From positions 6,142 through 14,734 of the forward strand of contig PLXD01000614.1 in NCBI GenBank assembly GCA_003151295.1: a stretch of 8,593 bases of DNA, given 5' to 3'. This DNA is from Chitinophagaceae bacterium (GTDB taxonomy: Bacteria > Bacteroidota > Bacteroidia > Chitinophagales > Chitinophagaceae). Positions 1 to 7,871 of the stretch are shown here, in pieces; positions within the stretch are counted from its first letter, which is position 1, and each line of letters opens with the position of its first letter. Both the position numbers and the translations under genes were made by a program. Under the pieces are notes generated by a model. That model saw only the letters and a list, made by a program, of their open reading frames with translations. It made no database searches and was not told the DNA's origin.

Positions 1-533
1 TCTGTAGCGCCATATAGGGAGCGGTAACCGCCGATTGCGAATTGCTCGCTGACACCCTTTTCGCTTAGCCCCGGCAAGGATTGTTTCGGGGAAAGGGCAA
101 AACGGGTCTCCGTTTCATGATAAGCTGCGGATTCCAGCGGTTCTATCGGGTAGACCCGGCTGGTCGACAAAAATAGGAACTTCGCCTTATGTTCCAGTGC
201 CAGCTGCAAGGTATTCAGGGTGCCGGAAAAATTCGTATTGATCAGGTATTCTTTAGAGAGTCTCCCATCCCCCCCGGCCAACACGGAGGGTTCGGCGGCT
301 GCATCGATAATGAAATCGAGGGGAAAGCGGATATCCAGGTCCTCCCTGCAACGGATATCTCCGTGTATGAATTCGACCCCGGCCGCTTGCAGGCGCGTAC
401 AATTTATCTCCGAACCCCTTCGTTTAAGGTTGTCCAGGGCAAAAATGCGGTCATCCGGATGTGCTTTTTTGCACTTGATTGCCAGATTGGAACCGATAAA
501 ACCACATCCGCCGGTGATTAATACATTCGCCAT
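1..533 (-). CDS. NAD-dependent epimerase/dehydratase (extended SDR, CDP-paratose 2-epimerase-like), 3' part missing
   Basis: This is an extended short-chain dehydrogenase probably acting on a nucleotide sugar in the cytoplasm. The frame is open from the ATG at 533-531 to the left edge, giving 177 residues plus two bases of the next codon; a full protein would be about 300-340 residues. The Rossmann nucleotide-binding motif GGCGFIGSN is at residues 8-16, an acidic residue after strand 2 is at D34, HGDI is at 57-60, and the active-site STSRVY segment is at 123-128. The wording GGCGFIGSNLA and HETETRF resembles CDP-paratose 2-epimerases, but the substrate cannot be fixed from this part. The catalytic Tyr is expected at Y174 (LYGAT, 173-177). 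The next codon starts with GA, so it encodes Asp or Glu where the Lys of YxxxK should stand. The gene starts 37 bases after the SGNH-like gene and is probably the continuation of the same operon. The family call is firm; the exact reaction is open. Confidence 0.85.
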   Translation of the reverse strand, partial: MANVLITGGCGFIGSNLAIKCKKAHPDDRIFALDNLKRRGSEINCTRLQAAGVEFIHGDIRCREDLDIRFPLDFIIDAAAEPSVLAGGDGRLSKEYLINTNFSGTLNTLQLALEHKAKFLFLSTSRVYPIEPLESAAYHETETRFALSPKQSLPGLSEKGVSEQFAIGGYRSLYGAT

Positions 534-570: not shown

Positions 571-1524
571 TTACGGCAGAACGGGCCAGAGGACCTGCGG
601 CAAAGTATCTTTTAACATTTTATTGAAAAGCAGCGCCCCGTTGTAATTCAGATGGCTGGTATTGAAATAGCAATCATCCGGGTAAAAATGGTGGCTATAA
701 TTCAAAACAGAGACATTCGGGAATCCCGCCAGCCAGGAGAAATAATGCAAGGCATCGTCATAATTTTTATACTGATCGAAATAGGACGGGTGAAAAGGCG
801 GGATCACGATAATAAAATGGCGTTTTGGATGATTGCGGACCAGGTTGACGAACCTTTTTTCCAGGACGCTGTCATTTTTAAACCAGGTCGGCCAACTTCT
901 TCTTTCCGCGATCAGGTCGGCGAATTTCTCTTTGGTCAGTACATTTTTTTCAATGCTGGCCCCCCGTTCACTGTATTTCGTCAAATTGATCCGGTCGGTC
1001 AGATAATCCTTCACATACCATTCATACTGACCGTAATATTTGATAAAGGGGATCTTATAATAGGGCCTGTAGGTGTTCCCGATTAATTTTTTGACATCGG
1101 GATCATTGCTGTTCAATATATAATTATTCGGCTCTCCAAGGCTGTATGTGAATCCGTCCAGTGACAGGACCAGGAGAATATTAGGATTTTTCTTTACCTT
1201 TTTGCACTCCTGTTCCAGGAAGAACAACAAGACATCGTCCCTGACCCCGGATAATCCGTAATTGAAATATTCGGGGCCTAACAGGCTGGGTATAAAAGCC
1301 CCTTCCGCCGTAGAGGGGCCGAAAATGGGTATCTCGCCGGCATCGGTGAATTTTAAGATCCTGTTTATCTTATAGCTGCCGGACGATTCGCTGTGAAGGA
1401 TGATCTTCCTTTCGAAAATATACTGGAATGACAATGCCAGAACGATCACCACGCCTGCAAAGAGCAGGGTATTGATCAAATGCGATCTTTTAAAACTGGA
1501 AGTAGATGAAGGTCCTGGATACAT
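571..1524 (-). CDS. Membrane-anchored SGNH/GDSL-like protein (DltD/AlgX-like partner of the MBOAT)
   Basis: This 317-residue protein has a short basic N-terminus and one membrane segment (about residues 18-36), so the rest is probably periplasmic. The body has scattered SGNH-hydrolase features: IFGPSTAEGAF at 68-77 in place of the GDS block with candidate nucleophile S71, NYGLSG at 88-93, and the C-terminal HLNYNGA at 291-297 with candidate catalytic H291. The usual DxxH acid position is Asn (N288), with D283/D284 just before it, so activity is uncertain. Such proteins commonly sit next to MBOAT acyltransferases and act in O-acylation of extracellular polymers (AlgX/AlgJ for alginate, DltD for teichoic acid). 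The start at 1524 lies 35 bases inside the end of the MBOAT gene, and no other Met occurs before residue 303, so translational coupling is likely. Sequence identity to named families is weak by eye; the call rests on motifs plus neighbours. Confidence 0.7.
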   Translation of the reverse strand: MYPGPSSTSSFKRSHLINTLLFAGVVIVLALSFQYIFERKIILHSESSGSYKINRILKFTDAGEIPIFGPSTAEGAFIPSLLGPEYFNYGLSGVRDDVLLFFLEQECKKVKKNPNILLVLSLDGFTYSLGEPNNYILNSNDPDVKKLIGNTYRPYYKIPFIKYYGQYEWYVKDYLTDRINLTKYSERGASIEKNVLTKEKFADLIAERRSWPTWFKNDSVLEKRFVNLVRNHPKRHFIIVIPPFHPSYFDQYKNYDDALHYFSWLAGFPNVSVLNYSHHFYPDDCYFNTSHLNYNGALLFNKMLKDTLPQVLWPVLP

Positions 1525-2896
1525 CTTTGCTAAGGATTATTATTGAGAAAAATGCAATGATCGAAAATGCGAATGTCAGCCTGGATTTATATAGTTTATT
1601 GATAAAATAGAACGAGAAGATCACTAAAAAGGATAGTAATAAGTTGAGAGGTCCTTTTTCCGCGCATAATTGCGTTAAATTGAAGCTGAAATGGAAGGAG
1701 AATAATGTTTTAAAGACCAGCTTCGTTTTGCTGAAGGTGCCCGCCCTGAAAAAGACCAGCGCCAGGCATACGAAAGAAAAAGTCAGCAGCTGGCTTATCG
1801 GATTGTACAGCAGGCCAGGTATCTTTTTTGAAAGCCTGACCCGTGTTTTTTTGGTCAGGAACTCATAGCTGACGGCCGCGCCATGCACGAATCCATAGAT
1901 CAGGAACGGCCAGCCGGCCCCATGCCATAAGCCGCTGAGTAAAAACGTGATGAGCAATGAAAAGAGGACGGCCCATTTTCCCCAATCCCTTTTGGCGACG
2001 ACGATGGGTGTGAACAGGTAGTCGTTGAACCAGGAAGAGAGAGAGATATGCCAGCGGCGCCAGAATTCCGTAACGCTTCTGCTCATGAAGGGCCGGTCGA
2101 AATTCTTCATCAGGTCGTAACCCATGACCTTGGCTGCCCCGATGGCGATGTCGGAATATCCTGAAAAGTCGCAATAGATCTGGAAGGCGAAGAAGAACAG
2201 GGCGATCAGCATCGAGACCGAATTGGCATGTTGAACGTCTCCATAGACGTTATCCACGTAGACCCCTAACCGGTCGGCAATGACGATCTTCTTGAAAAAA
2301 CCCAAAAGCATCATCCGCAGTCCCGCCAGGACCCTGTCATAGTCGAAATATTTCTTTTCATGGAATTGATACAGGATATTTTGCGGCCTTTCGATAGGTC
2401 CCGCCACCAACTGGGGATAGAACATGACATACAGGGCGTAAATGCCGAAATGTCTTTCCGCTTTGTGGTTTCCCCTGTATACTTCGATGGTATAACTCAT
2501 CGCCTGGAAGGTATGGAAGGACAATCCCAACGGCAATAATATATTCAGGTAGGGGATATGATTTTTGAATCCCATTAAACCAGCGAGTCCTGTGATATTG
2601 TCATTGAGGAAATTGTAATATTTGAATACGGCCAGTATCCCGATATTCGCGATCAGGCTTAGCACGAGATAATGCTTCCTGACCCGGGGATCGATGGCCG
2701 ATTCGATTTTCAACCCGGCATAATAATCGATGGCGATCGTGAAAGCCAGTATTAAAATATACACGGGTTTAAAGAACATATAAAAAACGCAGGAGGCAAA
2801 AAGCAGCAGGAACCATCTGAACCTATGGGGAAACAAAAAGAACAAGACCGTGGTAGCAACAAAAAAAACCAGGAATTCTACCGAATTAAACAGCAT
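1490..2896 (-). CDS. MBOAT family O-acyltransferase (AlgI/DltB-like)
   Basis: This 468-residue polytopic inner-membrane protein of the membrane-bound O-acyltransferase family moves acyl groups across the membrane onto an extracytoplasmic polysaccharide or other hydroxyl acceptor. Family marks are visible in order: the N-terminus MLFNSVEFLVFF, PLGLSFHTFQ at 122-131, MFYPQLVAGPIERP at 158-171, YCDFSGYSDIAIG at 241-253, FWRRWHISLSSWF at 278-290 with H283, and SGLWHGAGW at 321-329 with the invariant H325. The protein ends in FIYFQF, a common ending in this family, and the length is typical of AlgI. AlgI-type enzymes usually serve acetylation, whereas DltB accepts D-alanyl groups from the carrier DltC. 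Because an ACP gene lies two genes upstream in the same operon, an acyl-ACP donor is plausible here (inference). The start codon is 3 bases after the stop of the VOC gene, and the 3' end overlaps the SGNH-like gene by 35 bases. Confidence 0.95.
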   Translation of the reverse strand: MLFNSVEFLVFFVATTVLFFLFPHRFRWFLLLFASCVFYMFFKPVYILILAFTIAIDYYAGLKIESAIDPRVRKHYLVLSLIANIGILAVFKYYNFLNDNITGLAGLMGFKNHIPYLNILLPLGLSFHTFQAMSYTIEVYRGNHKAERHFGIYALYVMFYPQLVAGPIERPQNILYQFHEKKYFDYDRVLAGLRMMLLGFFKKIVIADRLGVYVDNVYGDVQHANSVSMLIALFFFAFQIYCDFSGYSDIAIGAAKVMGYDLMKNFDRPFMSRSVTEFWRRWHISLSSWFNDYLFTPIVVAKRDWGKWAVLFSLLITFLLSGLWHGAGWPFLIYGFVHGAAVSYEFLTKKTRVRLSKKIPGLLYNPISQLLTFSFVCLALVFFRAGTFSKTKLVFKTLFSFHFSFNLTQLCAEKGPLNLLLSFLVIFSFYFINKLYKSRLTFAFSIIAFFSIIILSKDVSRTFIYFQF

Positions 2897-2899
2897 AAT

Positions 2900-3307
2900 T
2901 TAATTTTCTATTAATTCTATTAAATGCATTTCCCGGGTGTAAAGGAATGCGCAGTCTTTATGATCGAATGCTTCGGAGACAAAGCGGTTTACCAGGTAGA
3001 AGCCTTCTTCCTGCAACTGCTCTATCACGGCGGGAAGGCCGGTCACCAGGTAACCGGTATGATAATAGGGATTCTTGCTTCTAATTATTTTTTTTAAGGC
3101 TGGATTTTCGCCCAGCGGCTCTACCAGTTCCAAAAATACGCCGGGCGTTGTTTCTATAAAACAAACCCGGACCTGCTGGTTTGAAACGGTGATGATTTCC
3201 GACGCCTGTTTCAAACCAAGGATATTGACATAATTATTCAGGCTCTCTTCGATATTTTCCGTCAGGCAGCCTACATGGTGCAGGCGTAGTTTCTGGAGTA
3301 GTTTCAT
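2900..3307 (-). CDS. VOC (glyoxalase/methylmalonyl-CoA epimerase-like) protein
   Basis: This small 135-residue metalloenzyme-type protein of the vicinal oxygen chelate superfamily is probably cytosolic. Candidate metal ligands fall at the expected places: H11 in LHHVG, E60 or E63 in VFLELVEP (58-65), H83 in YYHTGYLV, and E131 in MHLIELIE. The overall wording, with ELVEPLGENP followed by YYHTGYLV, resembles methylmalonyl-CoA epimerases, which act at the alpha carbon of a thioester. The frame extends upstream to an ATG at 3346, but that would overlap the ACP gene. The ATG at 3307-3305 lies 2 bases after the ACP stop codon and starts right before the first strand of the fold, so it is chosen as start. 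The position between the ACP and MBOAT genes suggests it acts on an ACP-bound acyl group, for example by epimerisation; that is inference. Another VOC activity such as lyase or oxygenase cannot be excluded. Confidence 0.85.
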   Translation of the reverse strand: MKLLQKLRLHHVGCLTENIEESLNNYVNILGLKQASEIITVSNQQVRVCFIETTPGVFLELVEPLGENPALKKIIRSKNPYYHTGYLVTGLPAVIEQLQEEGFYLVNRFVSEAFDHKDCAFLYTREMHLIELIEN

Positions 3308-3309
3308 GG

Positions 3310-3552
3310 TTACCTGGAGTTGAGTTTGCCCTGGATGCTCCGGCACATTTCCCCGATGTTTTTCCAGGATTGTATTTCGCTGGAAGTGAACCGCACGTTA
3401 AAATGTCTTTCTATGGCTACCACCAGTTGAATATGGTTCAGGGAATCCCATTCCTCGATATCCATTGCGGTGGTATTTTCAGTCAGGGCGATGGATTCAT
3501 TTTCCAATACGTCTCTAAAAATCACGTTGAGCTGTTCGATTATTTCTTCCAT
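3310..3552 (-). CDS. Acyl carrier protein
   Basis: This is an 80-residue acidic, helical carrier protein that carries acyl groups as thioesters on a 4'-phosphopantetheine arm. The attachment site is S37 in [12 protein letters not shown] (33-44), matching the DSL motif of ACPs, with helix II following it. The C-terminal part ([16 protein letters not shown]) matches helices III and IV. No phosphopantetheinyl transferase is seen here, so the cell's general enzyme would be needed. The gene starts 14 bases after the methyltransferase stop and ends 2 bases before the VOC start. A dedicated ACP beside an FkbH-like protein is the arrangement known from polyketide loci that make glyceryl-ACP, and beside an MBOAT it recalls DltC. 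It does not look like the primary fatty acid AcpP, because it lies in a polysaccharide operon with no fatty acid synthesis genes. Confidence 0.95.
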
Positions 3553-3566
3553 GTTCGTGGTGTTAT

Positions 3567-4466
3567 TTATTTTTTGGTGATAAAGGCCGCATACAGCATG
3601 GCCACTTTGTATTTCTCGGCCCTCTCCTTTGAAACTTTCTCCGAATAAATGCCGATTTCGTCCGTCACTTTAAAGCCGGCCTGGTCGATTACGTTCCGGA
3701 TGTCTTCCGCATTCGTAAACAGGTAGATATGATCGATCGCCGGGGCATTGGTCGGCGTGGTGATGAATAGGGTGCCATCGTCCTTGAGCAGTTCTCCCAG
3801 CTTTTTGAGCAGGGCCACGGGGTCTTCGACGTGTTCCATGACCTCTCCCATCGTGATGAAATCGTATTTCTTCTCCGCCGGTACCTTGAAAATGTCGCTC
3901 AGCATATAATTCACGGAGCTATTCCCGATCAGCGAACGGGAGGCTTCGATCGAAGTGGGGCTGATATCGATCAGGTCGAATTTTGTCCCGGGTTTCAGCA
4001 CCGATATGGCCTGGGAGATATAGAGCCCGTGGCCGCCGCCCATTTCCAGGTAGTGTTCGATCCGGTCCTTGAATTTGGGCAAATTATCGGTGAAATAATT
4101 GAGAATGGCATAATGGTGACCCCAGAGGAACTGAGAAAGAAGCAGGCCGTTCATATAATATTCCATCACCTCGGGATTATTGTACACCCTTTTATTCACT
4201 TCATCGAACGATTTGCTTGTATATTCCCCGGTCCTTAAAAAATGCAGGCTTTCGAGCCTGACGTCGGCGATCATTTTCAGGTAGCAGTCGATCCCGTAAT
4301 CCAGCGTTTTATCTTTCTTCTTCAAATAGTCGGCGAAGCGATCGGTGAAGAGGTCGGCTTTCTGGTAAAACGCATCGTCGAATCCTGCAAGGTCTTTATG
4401 GATCTTCTTGGAATGTAAGGGGTCCAATGCTTCAATTTTTGAAATAACGTCTTTAAACACACCCAT
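3567..4466 (-). CDS. Class I SAM-dependent methyltransferase
   Basis: This is a 299-residue cytosolic methyltransferase. The SAM-binding motif I is [10 protein letters not shown] at 140-149, an acidic residue after strand 2 is D167 (FDLIDIS), a further acidic motif is LSDIF at 189-193, motif II is [14 protein letters not shown] at 203-216, and the strand 5 region is [15 protein letters not shown] at 226-240. About 135 residues precede the SAM fold and look helical, with an aromatic-rich stretch [13 protein letters not shown] at 113-125. That stretch may bind substrate or dimerise, as in many O-methyltransferases for small molecules. The gene starts one base after the stop of the FkbH-like gene (TAG C ATG), so the two are probably translationally coupled. 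In polyketide loci FkbH is accompanied by an O-methyltransferase (FkbG), so methylation of an ACP-bound hydroxyacyl group is one option; sugar O-methylation is the other. The substrate is not visible in the sequence. Confidence 0.9.
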
Positions 4467-4467
4467 G

Positions 4468-6183
4468 CTATTTGTTTTTTATGAAAGTTTTTCGCTCTTT
4501 AAAATCTGCAATCGTGAGGACATACCCCTCACCGTCCCGGGAGAATCCCAGGTCGGAGTAATGGTTTTTGACCATTCCATTCTTCGGGGTGGCGATATAT
4601 TCCCCCACCAGTTCTGAACACCCGTGACTCCGGGCGATGCCGACCATCGTATTGAGGACAAAATTTTCCATGCCCCTTTTCAATACCCTGCAACTCATGA
4701 TCCAGGTATCCACGAATAATGCCCGGTCTCTCTTTTGGAGGATGATAGCGCTTATCAGTCCGTTATCACCAAAGATATCCTGCAAAGTAAATGAAATTGT
4801 AAAATAATCCTTGTCGGTGGCAATTTTCCCGGTTTGCTCTTCCGTATACCGGACCGTTCTCAGATTGAACTGATTGGATCTCTGTGAAAGCTGGGCGATC
4901 CTTGGAATGGTGAAGGCATCGAACGCCCGGACCTCGGATCGCATCTGCAAACTGTCCAGGAACTCGTCCTCATTCAAATAGCTTTGCTGGAGTGTCGTCC
5001 TTTTGGCTTCGACCTGGTATTGCCCGGTCCTTTCCCGGTCTTCTTCGGTGAAGGAGGCCGTCTCGAACAGGTTCAGACCTTCCAGGAAGACCAGGTATTC
5101 CGAAGGGTCCTCCGGAAGAGCAGGGACCGTGATGTCGGGGATAGCCTGTTGGACCATGGTTCTTTCAAAAGGGTTATCGTCGAGGAAGACCATGGAGTCG
5201 AAGGATATATTGAGGACGCTTTGAATATGCCTGATATTATCGACCTTGTTTTCCCAATTGGCTACAAAGATAGCTATATCGTTGAGCCTGAGGACCATAT
5301 CGGGATGATTTTCAAACGGCTCCCGGGCGATCTCTTCGGTATTCTTACTGCAAACGGCGAGGAGGATGCCCCTGTTTTTGAGCTCTTTTACCCAGCGCTG
5401 GAGGCCGGTGAAGGCCTTGCCGATGCCCAGGTCCCCCACCTGGATCCCTTCGATCCCATCGTCCCCGATGATCCCGCCCCATACCGTATTGTCAAGATCC
5501 AGGATCAGGCATTTTTTAAACCTCCCGGCAACCGCCTGGATGACATCGTGCAAATTTTTAACCAAATCAGGCAAGATGTCAAGGCCGAATACCATATCGG
5601 CGTTGATATACAGCCGGGAATCGAAGCTGTTGACCAGCCCCCTACGGTTTATAATGCTGCTAAAATCGGCCAGGAACAGCCTTTTGCAGGTCCTGGACAG
5701 GTCCATTAAGCAGAGATTCAGGTATTTCACCTGGTAGGGGAAGGAAGATTGCAATTTGGTCGAGAAATTGCCGAAAACGTTGTCATTTAATTCCGGGAAG
5801 GTATTGGTGAGAACCGTACAGTCGATCCGGGACAGGATCGTATCGTAGAGGTATTGGGTATGGGCCGCCTGCTTTTGGGCAAAGCCGGCTCGCTCTTCGG
5901 GCGGCGTTTTGTAGAAATCTTTTTTCAGTTTTTCGGAACTCCTGAGGATGAGGGCATATTGAGGCTTATATTCGTAAAATGGGGAGGATGGGTCGAGTAT
6001 CTGCCACTCAATCTGGTTATAATCGGCTTCGAAAATTTCATAGTGTATCCTTTCCCCGATTCCGTATCCTTTTAAGGCCTGTACCAGGAATTGCGAGGCG
6101 AAATCACAAAGAACAGCCACTTTGATAACCGTAAATCCTTCGACCCCTTTTTTTAAATTCTTCTTTAACCCCGAAAAATCCAT
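4468..6183 (-). CDS. FkbH-like HAD-IIIC phosphatase/GNAT protein (candidate glyceryl transferase to ACP)
   Basis: This 571-residue cytosolic protein has three parts. The N-terminal 220 residues or so match in style the SGNH-like N-domain of long FkbH proteins of Bacteroidota. The middle is a HAD-IIIC phosphatase domain with the nucleophile motif LDLDNTVWGG (228-237; D229 and D231), motif II VCSKN (277-281), the motif III lysine region WENKVDNI (310-317, K313), and motif IV FLDDNPFE (333-340, D335 and D336). The C-terminal part is GNAT-like, with DIFGDNGLI (469-477) and WIMSCRVLKRGME (494-506). The Cys in MSCRV (C498) is a candidate for carrying an acyl intermediate. Characterised FkbH/OzmB-type proteins take 1,3-bisphosphoglycerate, remove a phosphate and load glyceryl onto an ACP. 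All HAD catalytic residues are present, so activity is likely. It heads the minus-strand operon, followed at once by the methyltransferase and then the ACP, its probable acceptor. Confidence 0.92.
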   Translation of the reverse strand: MDFSGLKKNLKKGVEGFTVIKVAVLCDFASQFLVQALKGYGIGERIHYEIFEADYNQIEWQILDPSSPFYEYKPQYALILRSSEKLKKDFYKTPPEERAGFAQKQAAHTQYLYDTILSRIDCTVLTNTFPELNDNVFGNFSTKLQSSFPYQVKYLNLCLMDLSRTCKRLFLADFSSIINRRGLVNSFDSRLYINADMVFGLDILPDLVKNLHDVIQAVAGRFKKCLILDLDNTVWGGIIGDDGIEGIQVGDLGIGKAFTGLQRWVKELKNRGILLAVCSKNTEEIAREPFENHPDMVLRLNDIAIFVANWENKVDNIRHIQSVLNISFDSMVFLDDNPFERTMVQQAIPDITVPALPEDPSEYLVFLEGLNLFETASFTEEDRERTGQYQVEAKRTTLQQSYLNEDEFLDSLQMRSEVRAFDAFTIPRIAQLSQRSNQFNLRTVRYTEEQTGKIATDKDYFTISFTLQDIFGDNGLISAIILQKRDRALFVDTWIMSCRVLKRGMENFVLNTMVGIARSHGCSELVGEYIATPKNGMVKNHYSDLGFSRDGEGYVLTIADFKERKTFIKNK

Positions 6184-6503: not shown

Positions 6504-7004
6504 ATGGTCGTGAATAAAAAGAAATGGTATGCCGTTTACACCCGGCCGCGCTGGGAGAAGAAGGTGTTTGGCCGCCTGCAGGAAAGCGGAATAGAAGTAT
6601 ATTGTCCTTTCAACAAGGTCCGTAAAAAATGGAGCGACCGGATAAAGCTGGTGGAGGAACCTTTGTTTAAGTCTTATCTCTTCGTCAGGATCGCCGAAGA
6701 AGAACAGCCGGCCGTAAGAATGGCGAGTGGGGTGGTGAACTTCGTATATTGGTTGGGTAAACCGGCGATCGTCCGGGACAAGGACATCGAGACGATCCGA
6801 AAATTCCTGCATGAGTATGAAAATGTGCAGGCGGTTCCCCTCGAACTTACGGCGGGTACAAAGGTAAAGATCCGGCAGGGCGTCTTTATGGATAAGGAAG
6901 CCAGGGTGCTGCGAACGCAGCATAAGAAGATACAAGTGATCATCGAGAGTATCGGGTATTCCCTGGTGGCAATCGTCGATAAATCGAATTTGGCAATGAT
7001 CTAA
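6504..7004 (+). CDS. NusG-family transcription antiterminator (UpxY/RfaH-like)
   Basis: This 166-residue NusG paralogue binds RNA polymerase and probably lets it read through the long polysaccharide operon. The N-terminal NGN domain is visible as KKWYAVYTRPRWEKKVFGRL (6-25), then the PLFKSYLFVRI core (53-63) and FVYWLGKPAIV (80-90). The C-terminal KOW-like domain starts around GTKVKIRQGVF (118-128) and ends in VAIVDKSNL. The length of about 165 residues fits specialised paralogues such as UpxY of Bacteroides and not the housekeeping NusG, which is normally near 180 residues and sits beside secE and rplK. Being first in an export operon is the typical position of UpxY genes. Those act on their own operon's leader, so the hairpin at 6398-6446 is a candidate target. 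The stop is 33 bases before the Wza-like gene. Confidence 0.92.
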   Translation: MVVNKKKWYAVYTRPRWEKKVFGRLQESGIEVYCPFNKVRKKWSDRIKLVEEPLFKSYLFVRIAEEEQPAVRMASGVVNFVYWLGKPAIVRDKDIETIRKFLHEYENVQAVPLELTAGTKVKIRQGVFMDKEARVLRTQHKKIQVIIESIGYSLVAIVDKSNLAMI

Positions 7005-7037: not shown

Positions 7038-7871
7038 ATGAGTATTCGTTTTCGTGTAAAGAACCTCTTTTCCCTCTACACACCCATCTTAGCCATGCTG
7101 CCCTCCCTGATGGTATCCTGCACAAACACCAAACACCTGACCTATCTGGAAGGGAAGTTCGATACGGCCCGGCTCAGCCAGATCCATATCCCCGAAGCTA
7201 TGATCCAGCGTGGCGATCAGGTCAGCATCGCCGTATATAGCGATAACCCGCAGGCTTCCGCCATTTACAATCAATCCCAGGCAGGGATTGCATCGGGCGT
7301 GGGATCAATATCCGGCGGGGTCGGGGGTTCCGGTACGGCGCCTGCTTCTTCCGCCGGCGGATCTTACCTGGTGGACGACCATGGGAACATAGATTTCCCC
7401 AGCCTGGGGCGTTTGCATATTGAGGGCCTTACCCGTGACCAACTGAATGATACCCTGAATGGGAAATTAAGCGAATACCTGAAAAACCCATACTTCGTTA
7501 TTCACTTCCTCAATAACCGGTACACGATGCTGGGGGAAGTAGCCAAACCCGGCATCTACAATATACCCGGCGATCATATCAATTTGCTCGAAGCGCTTGC
7601 CGTGGCAGGGGACTTGAGTTTGTACGGCAGGCGCGATAGTATCCTGGTAATCCGGGAAGTGAATGGGAAAAGGGAATTCGCCAGGCTGGATATCACTAAA
7701 CCGGAGATCATGGCATCCCCTTATTTTAATCTCCAGCAAAATGACCTGGTATACGTTGTGCCCTCCAAGAAAAAAGCAATCGCCAATGACCAGATCACTA
7801 GCCGTAATATCGGCATTGCGGCCAGCCTTCTTTCAATTTTAGTGATCTTGATCACCGTTTTTAAACTATAA
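7038..7871 (+). CDS. Polysaccharide export lipoprotein (Wza-like, Poly_export/SLBB)
   Basis: This 277-residue protein probably forms part of the outer-membrane export channel for the polysaccharide. A signal peptide of the lipoprotein type ends with LMVSC, placing the lipidated residue at C28. The Poly_export domain starts around IQRGDQVSIAVYSDNP (56-71) and resumes at YLVDDHGNIDFPSLGRLHIEGLT (110-132), followed by an SLBB domain with VIHFLNNRYTMLGEVAKPG (154-172), LLEALAVAGDL (183-193) and NDLVYVVPSKKK (235-246). Between residues 82 and 108 lies a Gly/Ser/Ala-rich stretch that interrupts the first domain. The C-terminus ends in a membrane helix (about 257-275), as is usual in Bacteroidota relatives. 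The next gene, Wzc-like, starts 14 bases downstream, so the two are co-transcribed as in other export systems. Confidence 0.93.
   Translation: MSIRFRVKNLFSLYTPILAMLPSLMVSCTNTKHLTYLEGKFDTARLSQIHIPEAMIQRGDQVSIAVYSDNPQASAIYNQSQAGIASGVGSISGGVGGSGTAPASSAGGSYLVDDHGNIDFPSLGRLHIEGLTRDQLNDTLNGKLSEYLKNPYFVIHFLNNRYTMLGEVAKPGIYNIPGDHINLLEALAVAGDLSLYGRRDSILVIREVNGKREFARLDITKPEIMASPYFNLQQNDLVYVVPSKKKAIANDQITSRNIGIAASLLSILVILITVFKL

Follow-up and report, generated by a model that had tools for sequence, protein, structure and literature searches.

An 8,593-nucleotide stretch of DNA from a Chitinophagaceae bacterium (GenBank assembly GCA_003151295.1, contig PLXD01000614.1, positions 6,142 to 14,734; hereafter the window) carries a minus-strand operon of six genes that encode, in this order, an FkbH-type enzyme, a methyltransferase, an acyl carrier protein (ACP), a VOC-superfamily protein, an MBOAT membrane acyltransferase and an SGNH protein. 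The analysis suggests that this operon probably loads a glyceroyl group onto the ACP, likely modifies it there, and likely esterifies an exported polysaccharide with it by way of the MBOAT and SGNH proteins. The evidence consists of gene order, family membership, conserved residues, structure models and counts, and every chemical step is inferred from these. The first-pass annotation of this DNA had described a compact minus-strand operon and had read it as a functional parallel of dltABCD with a glycolytic source of acyl groups. The gene order, the small gaps and the single overlap were all confirmed, the names given to the six parts are backed by family searches, by residue conservation and by two structure models, and the parallel with dltABCD is supported as the best inference, though not proven. 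The intergenic gaps are 1, 14, 2 and 3 bases, followed by a 35-base overlap of the MBOAT and SGNH genes. The parts of the operon, in window positions, are as follows.

4468..6183, minus strand: FkbH-type enzyme, 571 residues (TIGR01686 298.3, cut-off 146.65; PF21211 192.3, cut-off 27)
3567..4466, minus strand: S-adenosylmethionine-dependent methyltransferase, 299 residues (PF13489 above cut-off)
3310..3552, minus strand: acyl carrier protein, 80 residues (PF00550 above cut-off)
2900..3307, minus strand: VOC/glyoxalase-superfamily protein, 135 residues from the ATG at 3307 (PF13669 above cut-off)
1490..2896, minus strand: MBOAT membrane acyltransferase, 468 residues, with H283 and H325 (PF03062)
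1994..2047, minus strand: MBOAT residues 284-301, a predicted helix that corresponds to HC of DltB, where DltC docks (AlphaFold2 (AF2) model and alignment to DltB)
1493..1510, minus strand: acyl-shuttle motif FIYFQF with Y465 at the extreme C-terminus of the MBOAT (FXYXXF motif of PMC12148441)
571..1524, minus strand: single-pass SGNH transferase, 317 residues, with S71, N288 and H291 (conserved residues and AF2 model)

Results

The FkbH-type enzyme and its carrier

The FkbH domain and the FkbH N-terminal domain both score above their curated cut-offs, and the protein matches PDB entry 3slr across residues 3-381. D229, D231, T233 and C498 are kept in all 36 aligned FkbH sequences (window included; four shorter pieces were left out), the first three as HAD residues and C498 as a candidate acyl-cysteine. 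In the ACP the phosphopantetheine serine, S37, lies within WDSLNHIQ, and D36 and S37 are kept in 36/36 aligned ACPs of FkbH loci, window included. The glyceroyl-loading module of the first-pass annotation holds up, with the HAD aspartates of FkbH intact and a DS motif in the ACP, and to judge from its family FkbH likely loads glyceroyl from 1,3-bisphosphoglycerate onto this carrier. The draft genome contains four matches to the phosphopantetheinyl transferase family, and these proteins could activate the ACP.

Linkage of the FkbH/ACP pair to MBOAT genes

FkbH was found at an E-value of 1e-60 or better in 22 of 396 genomes of the order and in 17 of 395 genomes of the phylum, two sets that both include the window's genome and that share members. 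All 39 FkbH loci outside the window were fetched, 28 of them close and 11 distant. Among the 21 close loci with at least 4.5 kb downstream, some of which are near relatives of one another (such as L108-L110), an ACP gene is present within 4.5 kb in 18 and an MBOAT gene in 14. The reading in the first-pass annotation depended on the FkbH/ACP pair not being routinely separated from the MBOAT, and this is what was seen, with 14/21 close loci linked and 7/21 without an MBOAT. Chance clustering of the cassette genes was rejected because the linkage recurs in 14/21 loci. The 11 distant loci have an ACP in nine cases, a VOC gene in four and an MBOAT in two. On the MBOAT tree, the 23 FkbH-linked rows need 4 changes, compared with 20.8 when shuffled.

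The genes that accompany FkbH, ACP and MBOAT vary from locus to locus: none is added in some, and others have methyltransferase and VOC, VOC alone, MaoC and SDR, or methyltransferase, MaoC and SDR. FkbH-ACP loci of the MaoC/SDR kind are L113, L120, L124, L125, L127, L130, L142, L038 and L081, with no ACP called in L113 and no MaoC in L127. The MaoC and SDR enzymes could yield lactoyl from glyceroyl by dehydration and reduction. In L124 and L125 the series FkbH-ACP-MaoC-SDR is followed by a 344-residue gene without a Pfam match at the place where the MBOAT would be.

A loop of the MBOAT goes with the carrier

The MBOAT matches the DltB structures 8jem and 6bug at E about 1e-30, and its AF2 model (predicted local distance difference test score, pLDDT, 89.3) has DltB 6bug as its best PDB match. 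It has no LGG motif in the helix HC region. Most carrier-less relatives have YIPLGGNR or a similar sequence after helix HC, whereas FkbH-linked MBOATs have TPIVINKRDW or similar. Residues T296, V299 and V300 are among the top eight columns that separate 22 FkbH-linked from 71 unlinked MBOATs, a comparison from which L026_3932 was dropped as too distant, with L081_10001 kept out of the linked group and the ACP-only L006 placed in neither. These three residues align with DltB Met302, Val305 and Ile306, which are described together with Met309 as hydrophobic contacts with DltC in the part of PMC11035591 drawn on here. Met309 of DltB aligns with K302, a less distinct column.

A further sample was made up of MBOATs picked regardless of FkbH or ACP from 148 genomes of the phylum, 55 of which had MBOAT matches. 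From the 82 listed matches 81 were fetched in 77 regions (a cut match in G530 was left out); four of the 81 duplicate MBOATs already counted in the first sample, and 76 of the 77 left were classified. An ACP gene lies within 1.5 kb of none of the 64 LGG-type MBOATs and of 8 of the 12 others in this sample, which was not fully blind, as the loop rules were set after earlier versions had misclassified loops. With a stricter loop motif the counts are 0/61 and 8/15. Over all three samples an ACP is present within 1.5 kb in 2/139 LGG-type and 29/40 non-LGG MBOATs, one of the 180 distinct MBOATs (L227) having been left out for want of a recognisable loop. As to the two LGG exceptions, L122 was miscalled (its loop reads QPLMIGARN) and L130_14370 has another MBOAT between itself and the ACP.

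Each of the eight ACP-linked non-LGG MBOATs of the further sample is accompanied by an AMP-binding enzyme gene a short way upstream, with no FkbH in view, and the loop therefore goes with the carrier and not with FkbH as such. L081 holds one MBOAT of each loop type, and the non-LGG one is the one that follows FkbH-ACP-MaoC-SDR. L006 combines a non-LGG loop with an AMP-ligase and an ACP instead of FkbH, whereas its relatives L009, L012, L013 and L015, which lack an ACP, have LGG. DltB-like use of a carrier, as put forward in the first-pass annotation, is thus suggested by the loop, through the columns at the DltC contacts and the ACP linkage counts.

In seven loci (L199, L205, L210, L211, L212, L214 and L216) an AMP-binding enzyme of 572-586 residues, an ACP and a non-LGG MBOAT follow one another with no FkbH in view. 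The order in L006 (10001-14808) is MBOAT and SGNH of the window's subfamily, then the AMP-binding ligase, a 220-residue gene and the ACP. The seven loci are possibly undescribed Dlt-like systems.

A C-terminal shuttle motif and the SGNH protein

The first-pass annotation missed the acyl-tyrosine shuttle motif at the C-terminus of the MBOAT. Residues F463, Y465 and F468 of this motif are present in 20/20 aligned MBOATs longer than 400 residues, window included. According to the portion of PMC12148441 cited here, PatA acetylates its own tyrosine in an FXYXXF motif, and in the Dlt pathway this motif is on a separate peptide, DltX. Unlinked MBOATs carry the motif too (68 of 73 end exactly in FIYFQF), and it does not tell the two donor types apart.

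The SGNH protein had been proposed as a single-pass SGNH-like protein, and this agrees with the N-terminal helix of its AF2 model (residues 10-42), the catalytic Ser and His and the fold matches to DltD and OatA, which place it among SGNH folds. In 33 aligned sequences, window included, S71 and H291 are invariant and position 288 is N or D. Foldseek ranks DltD first for the model; by Z, OatA and other SGNH folds score equal or better. The Pfam DltD model does not match the window protein, and a relative (P0032) reaches 19.7 bits (cut-off 22.7). A profile of the SGNH family gave a single match among PDB sequences, to an unrelated protein at E 0.48. When this profile was compared with proteins encoded after MBOATs elsewhere, the match to that of L118 was significant (probability 95%, E 2.9e-08) and those to L231, L232 and L003 were not.

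The start of the SGNH gene (window 1490-1524) overlaps the FIYFQF codons of the MBOAT, and the N-terminal SSTSSFK of the SGNH protein is read from the same DNA in another frame. A similar start is kept in 63 of 79 SGNH homologues, which suggests that the MBOAT/SGNH overlap is conserved; the remaining 16 are mostly shorter or begin at a later position.

The methyltransferase and VOC genes

The methyltransferase is UbiG/BioC-like, but it falls below the equivalog cut-offs, and comparison matched it to generic methyltransferases. Its gene directly adjoins FkbH in 8 of the 28 close FkbH loci, and the enzyme would O-methylate the ACP-bound acyl group, its presumed substrate. In the VOC protein the metal ligands are conserved, and H24, E73, H96 and E144 (numbered from a GTG start) are kept in 14/14 VOC rows, window included. 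A counterpart of the second catalytic glutamate of methylmalonyl-CoA epimerase seems to be missing. The substrate of the VOC protein is likely the acyl group on the ACP, which it may epimerise at C2. The distant FkbH loci L133, L135, L136 and L137 have ACP and VOC genes and no MBOAT within 4.5 kb; because VOC accompanies FkbH and ACP where no MBOAT is nearby, it likely acts on the carrier-bound acid and not in the export step. The methyltransferase and VOC genes are swappable and not core parts of the cassette, a point absent from the first-pass annotation. The acid on the window's ACP is likely O-methylglyceroyl.

Surroundings of the operon

Two polysaccharide genes are divergent from the operon, as follows.

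6504-7004, plus strand: UpxY antiterminator (NF033644 137 bits, cut-off 100)
7038-7871, plus strand: Wza-type export protein (PF02563 55 bits, cut-off 28)

A third gene on this strand, of which only the start is present, has no Pfam match. The UpxY/Wza arrangement is repeated beside a cut FkbH gene in L146 (genome G004, same genus). Downstream, the SGNH gene is followed on its own strand by an NAD-dependent epimerase gene that spans two frames, by another epimerase gene and by one for a family-2 glycosyltransferase. The acceptor is likely the polymer exported by the adjacent Wza system.

The NAD-dependent epimerase gene (window 1-533, minus strand; L002 5588-6674) is split into open reading frames of 181 and 200 residues in different frames, which cover the first and the last part of the Pfam family; the split is genuine or stems from an error of assembly. 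Farther along the contig, on the opposite strand, are a TROVE-domain gene and an aminotransferase gene (L002 2221-3792 and 835-1956). The host assembly is a draft of 669 contigs that is 66% complete, with the operon on a contig of 14.7 kb. Elsewhere in this genome, on contig C353, a second MBOAT gene is preceded by one for a bacterial sugar transferase and followed by one with an SGNH-like motif.

Related cassettes in Alphaproteobacteria

Similar gene sets were found outside the phylum. A plasmid of the marine alphaproteobacterium Rhodobacteraceae SC52 has genes for an ACP, FkbH, an MBOAT, a 358-residue protein and a VOC protein in a row, and on pSymB of Sinorhizobium meliloti VOC, MBOAT, a 409-residue protein, ACP and FkbH are together. 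Sinorhizobium records matched FkbH in 40 cases and MBOAT in 41, and two S. meliloti records were inspected, in which the cassette lies at L230 4659-10688 and L232 7889-13768. The FkbH gene of S. meliloti appears as two overlapping frames in the record of strain 1021 and as one gene in strain ml46. The MBOATs of SC52 and S. meliloti 1021 have no LGG and end in FIYFNF and FLYQGF. The proteins encoded after the MBOAT in SC52 and S. meliloti carry GxS and DxxH motifs. In profile comparisons they did not match the SGNH family of the window significantly, and they are therefore called SGNH-like from these motifs and their position alone.

Discussion

A proposed pathway

The data are consistent with the following series of steps. 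Going by its family, FkbH would remove the phosphate and make glyceroyl-S-ACP. The methyltransferase would then O-methylate the glyceroyl group and the VOC protein might invert C2, giving O-methylglyceroyl. By analogy with DltB and from the loop signature, the charged ACP would dock on helix HC of the MBOAT, which would take the acyl group with H325. As described for PatA and DltX, the group may then be handed, on the outer face, to Y465 of FIYFQF, from which it could pass to S71 of the SGNH protein and finally to a sugar hydroxyl.

Comparison with known systems

The operon resembles a Dlt system in having a carrier gene, a DltB-like MBOAT, a single-pass SGNH protein, an acyl-shuttle motif and presumably an ester product. 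It differs in that FkbH replaces the adenylating enzyme DltA, the acyl group likely comes from a glycolytic intermediate, the shuttle motif is fused to the MBOAT, the locus is one of polysaccharide export, and the MBOAT and ACP are below the DltB and DltC cut-offs (170.3 bits for the equivalog TIGR04091, cut-off 375; 19.2 bits for NF003464, cut-off 68). A true Dlt system was rejected on these scores and on the lack of an AMP-ligase on the contig. Family scans of the genes listed for the 14.7-kb contig found no AMP-binding protein; the contig ends there, and such a gene may lie elsewhere.

PatA/PatB and AlgI types likewise have an MBOAT with a C-terminal FXYXXF motif and a separate SGNH protein. 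However, these types are described as using acyl-CoA and no carrier (PMC12148441, in the part cited), whereas the window's MBOAT has an ACP gene in its operon and no LGG loop. Natural-product pathways with FkbH (methoxymalonyl-ACP, tetronates, the glycerate of suomilide and varlaxin) also pair FkbH with its own carrier and sometimes with an O-methyltransferase, but in those pathways the acyl group is built into a polyketide or peptide, whereas that of the window is likely handed to an MBOAT and exported. The AMP-ligase-ACP-MBOAT loci (L199 and the others, and L006) share a carrier-linked non-LGG MBOAT ending in FIYFQF, and differ in that FkbH stands where they have the gene for the AMP-binding enzyme. 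Gellan, which is made by Sphingomonas, carries L-glycerate groups, and the passage of PMC9104527 that reports them does not name the transferase; the product predicted for the window is of this type, with glycerate as an acyl group of an exported polysaccharide. No description of an FkbH/ACP/MBOAT cassette for polymer acylation was found in the open-access literature, among the matches listed.

Alternative explanations and points against the proposed function

It would also be conceivable that the MBOAT and SGNH proteins O-acetylate a polysaccharide from acetyl-CoA, in the manner of PatA or AlgI, while the FkbH, methyltransferase, ACP and VOC genes are neighbours by chance and make an N-acyl group of a sugar. 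N-glyceroyl groups are known from an O-antigen, as stated in the portion of PMC10609480 used here, and this explanation would suit the seven of 21 close FkbH loci without an MBOAT, the 344-residue gene in the place of the MBOAT in L124 and L125, and the four of six other loci of the window's SGNH family that have an LGG-type MBOAT with no carrier nearby (L009, L012, L013 and L015). We nevertheless consider it improbable, as the LGG loop that is usual among unlinked MBOATs is absent from the window's MBOAT, three of the changed columns map to the DltC contacts of DltB, none of the 64 LGG-type MBOATs of the further sample has an ACP nearby, and family scans recognised no N-acyltransferase gene in the operon. 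Transfer from the carrier could also be correct with a different acid of three or four carbons (methoxymalonyl, lactoyl or a C-methylated acid, for example). The methyltransferase and VOC proteins could alter the acid, the MaoC and SDR genes swapped in at related loci could give lactoyl, and methoxymalonyl-ACP is reported to derive from glyceryl-ACP (PMC7489565, in part). This is unlikely for the window, where no MaoC or SDR gene lies between the FkbH and SGNH genes and none of the six genes was recognised as either dehydrogenase of the methoxymalonyl route. The methoxymalonyl route was rejected on this last ground, the downstream genes being of the epimerase family and a glycosyltransferase. 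Somewhat unlikely, in our view, is an acceptor other than the Wza-exported polysaccharide, namely lipopolysaccharide, a glycolipid, a protein glycan or peptidoglycan. MBOAT/SGNH pairs are said to serve several polymers in the part of PMC12148441 considered, and the 19-kb stretch from S. meliloti ml46 has no annotated polysaccharide-export gene. Glyceroyl is rare on Bacteroidota O-glycans, and the gene for it in Tannerella stayed elusive in the accounts cited (PMC12871550 and PMC6120980, each in part). Against such an acceptor stand the UpxY and Wza genes, which are divergent from the operon in the window and have the same arrangement in L146, and the epimerases and glycosyltransferase that follow it.

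Several observations weigh against glyceroyl transfer from the ACP to an exported polysaccharide, in addition to the FkbH loci without an MBOAT and the LGG-type neighbours of the SGNH family already mentioned. The two salt-bridge residues of DltB, Lys312 and Arg317, fall in alignment gaps, and Glu40 of DltC, which salt-bridges to DltB, is replaced by Gln in the window's ACP. The acid of the SGNH triad is Asn in the window and Asp in some relatives. Without an ACP within 1.5 kb are 11 of the 40 non-LGG MBOATs; in five of these (L006, L014, L038_1227, L114 and L120) FkbH, or an ACP with an AMP-ligase, is present farther off, and six (L004, L026, L158, L194, L200 and L228) have no carrier or loader in view. 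The host genome has a second non-LGG MBOAT (L148/L233, contig C353) with no ACP found on that contig, which might borrow the window's carrier in trans. A test of pairs on the tree gave about 3.3 pairs that agree and 0.2 that disagree, with a median p of 0.25, which is not significant in a test that is too small. Because of this result, and because the rule was adjusted during the work, shared ancestry remains part of the loop signal. No biochemistry was found for the cassette, and the roles of the methyltransferase and VOC proteins, the acyl group and the acceptor are put forward here as predictions.

Significance

A broader proposal, which is made tentatively, is that the operon represents widespread glycolysis-fed, Dlt-like exporters of Bacteroidota and Alphaproteobacteria, which would consist of FkbH, a private carrier, swappable tailoring genes, a non-LGG docking surface on the MBOAT and an acyl-tyrosine shuttle, and in which the change from LGG to a hydrophobic loop may predict whether CoA or a carrier is used. 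A review states, in the part cited, that all MBOATs except DltB use acyl-CoA (PMC10213974). If the function proposed here is true, a carrier-fed MBOAT in a Gram-negative phylum would widen that rule, and the loop signature would predict the acyl donors of uncharacterised polymer acyltransferases from sequence. The S. meliloti cassette would be a place to test the proposed function. The operon would also point to a possible route by which glycerate groups like those on gellan arise, and it would tie surface-polymer chemistry directly to glycolytic flux, with bacterial surface polymers drawing acyl groups from a source that is new for them.

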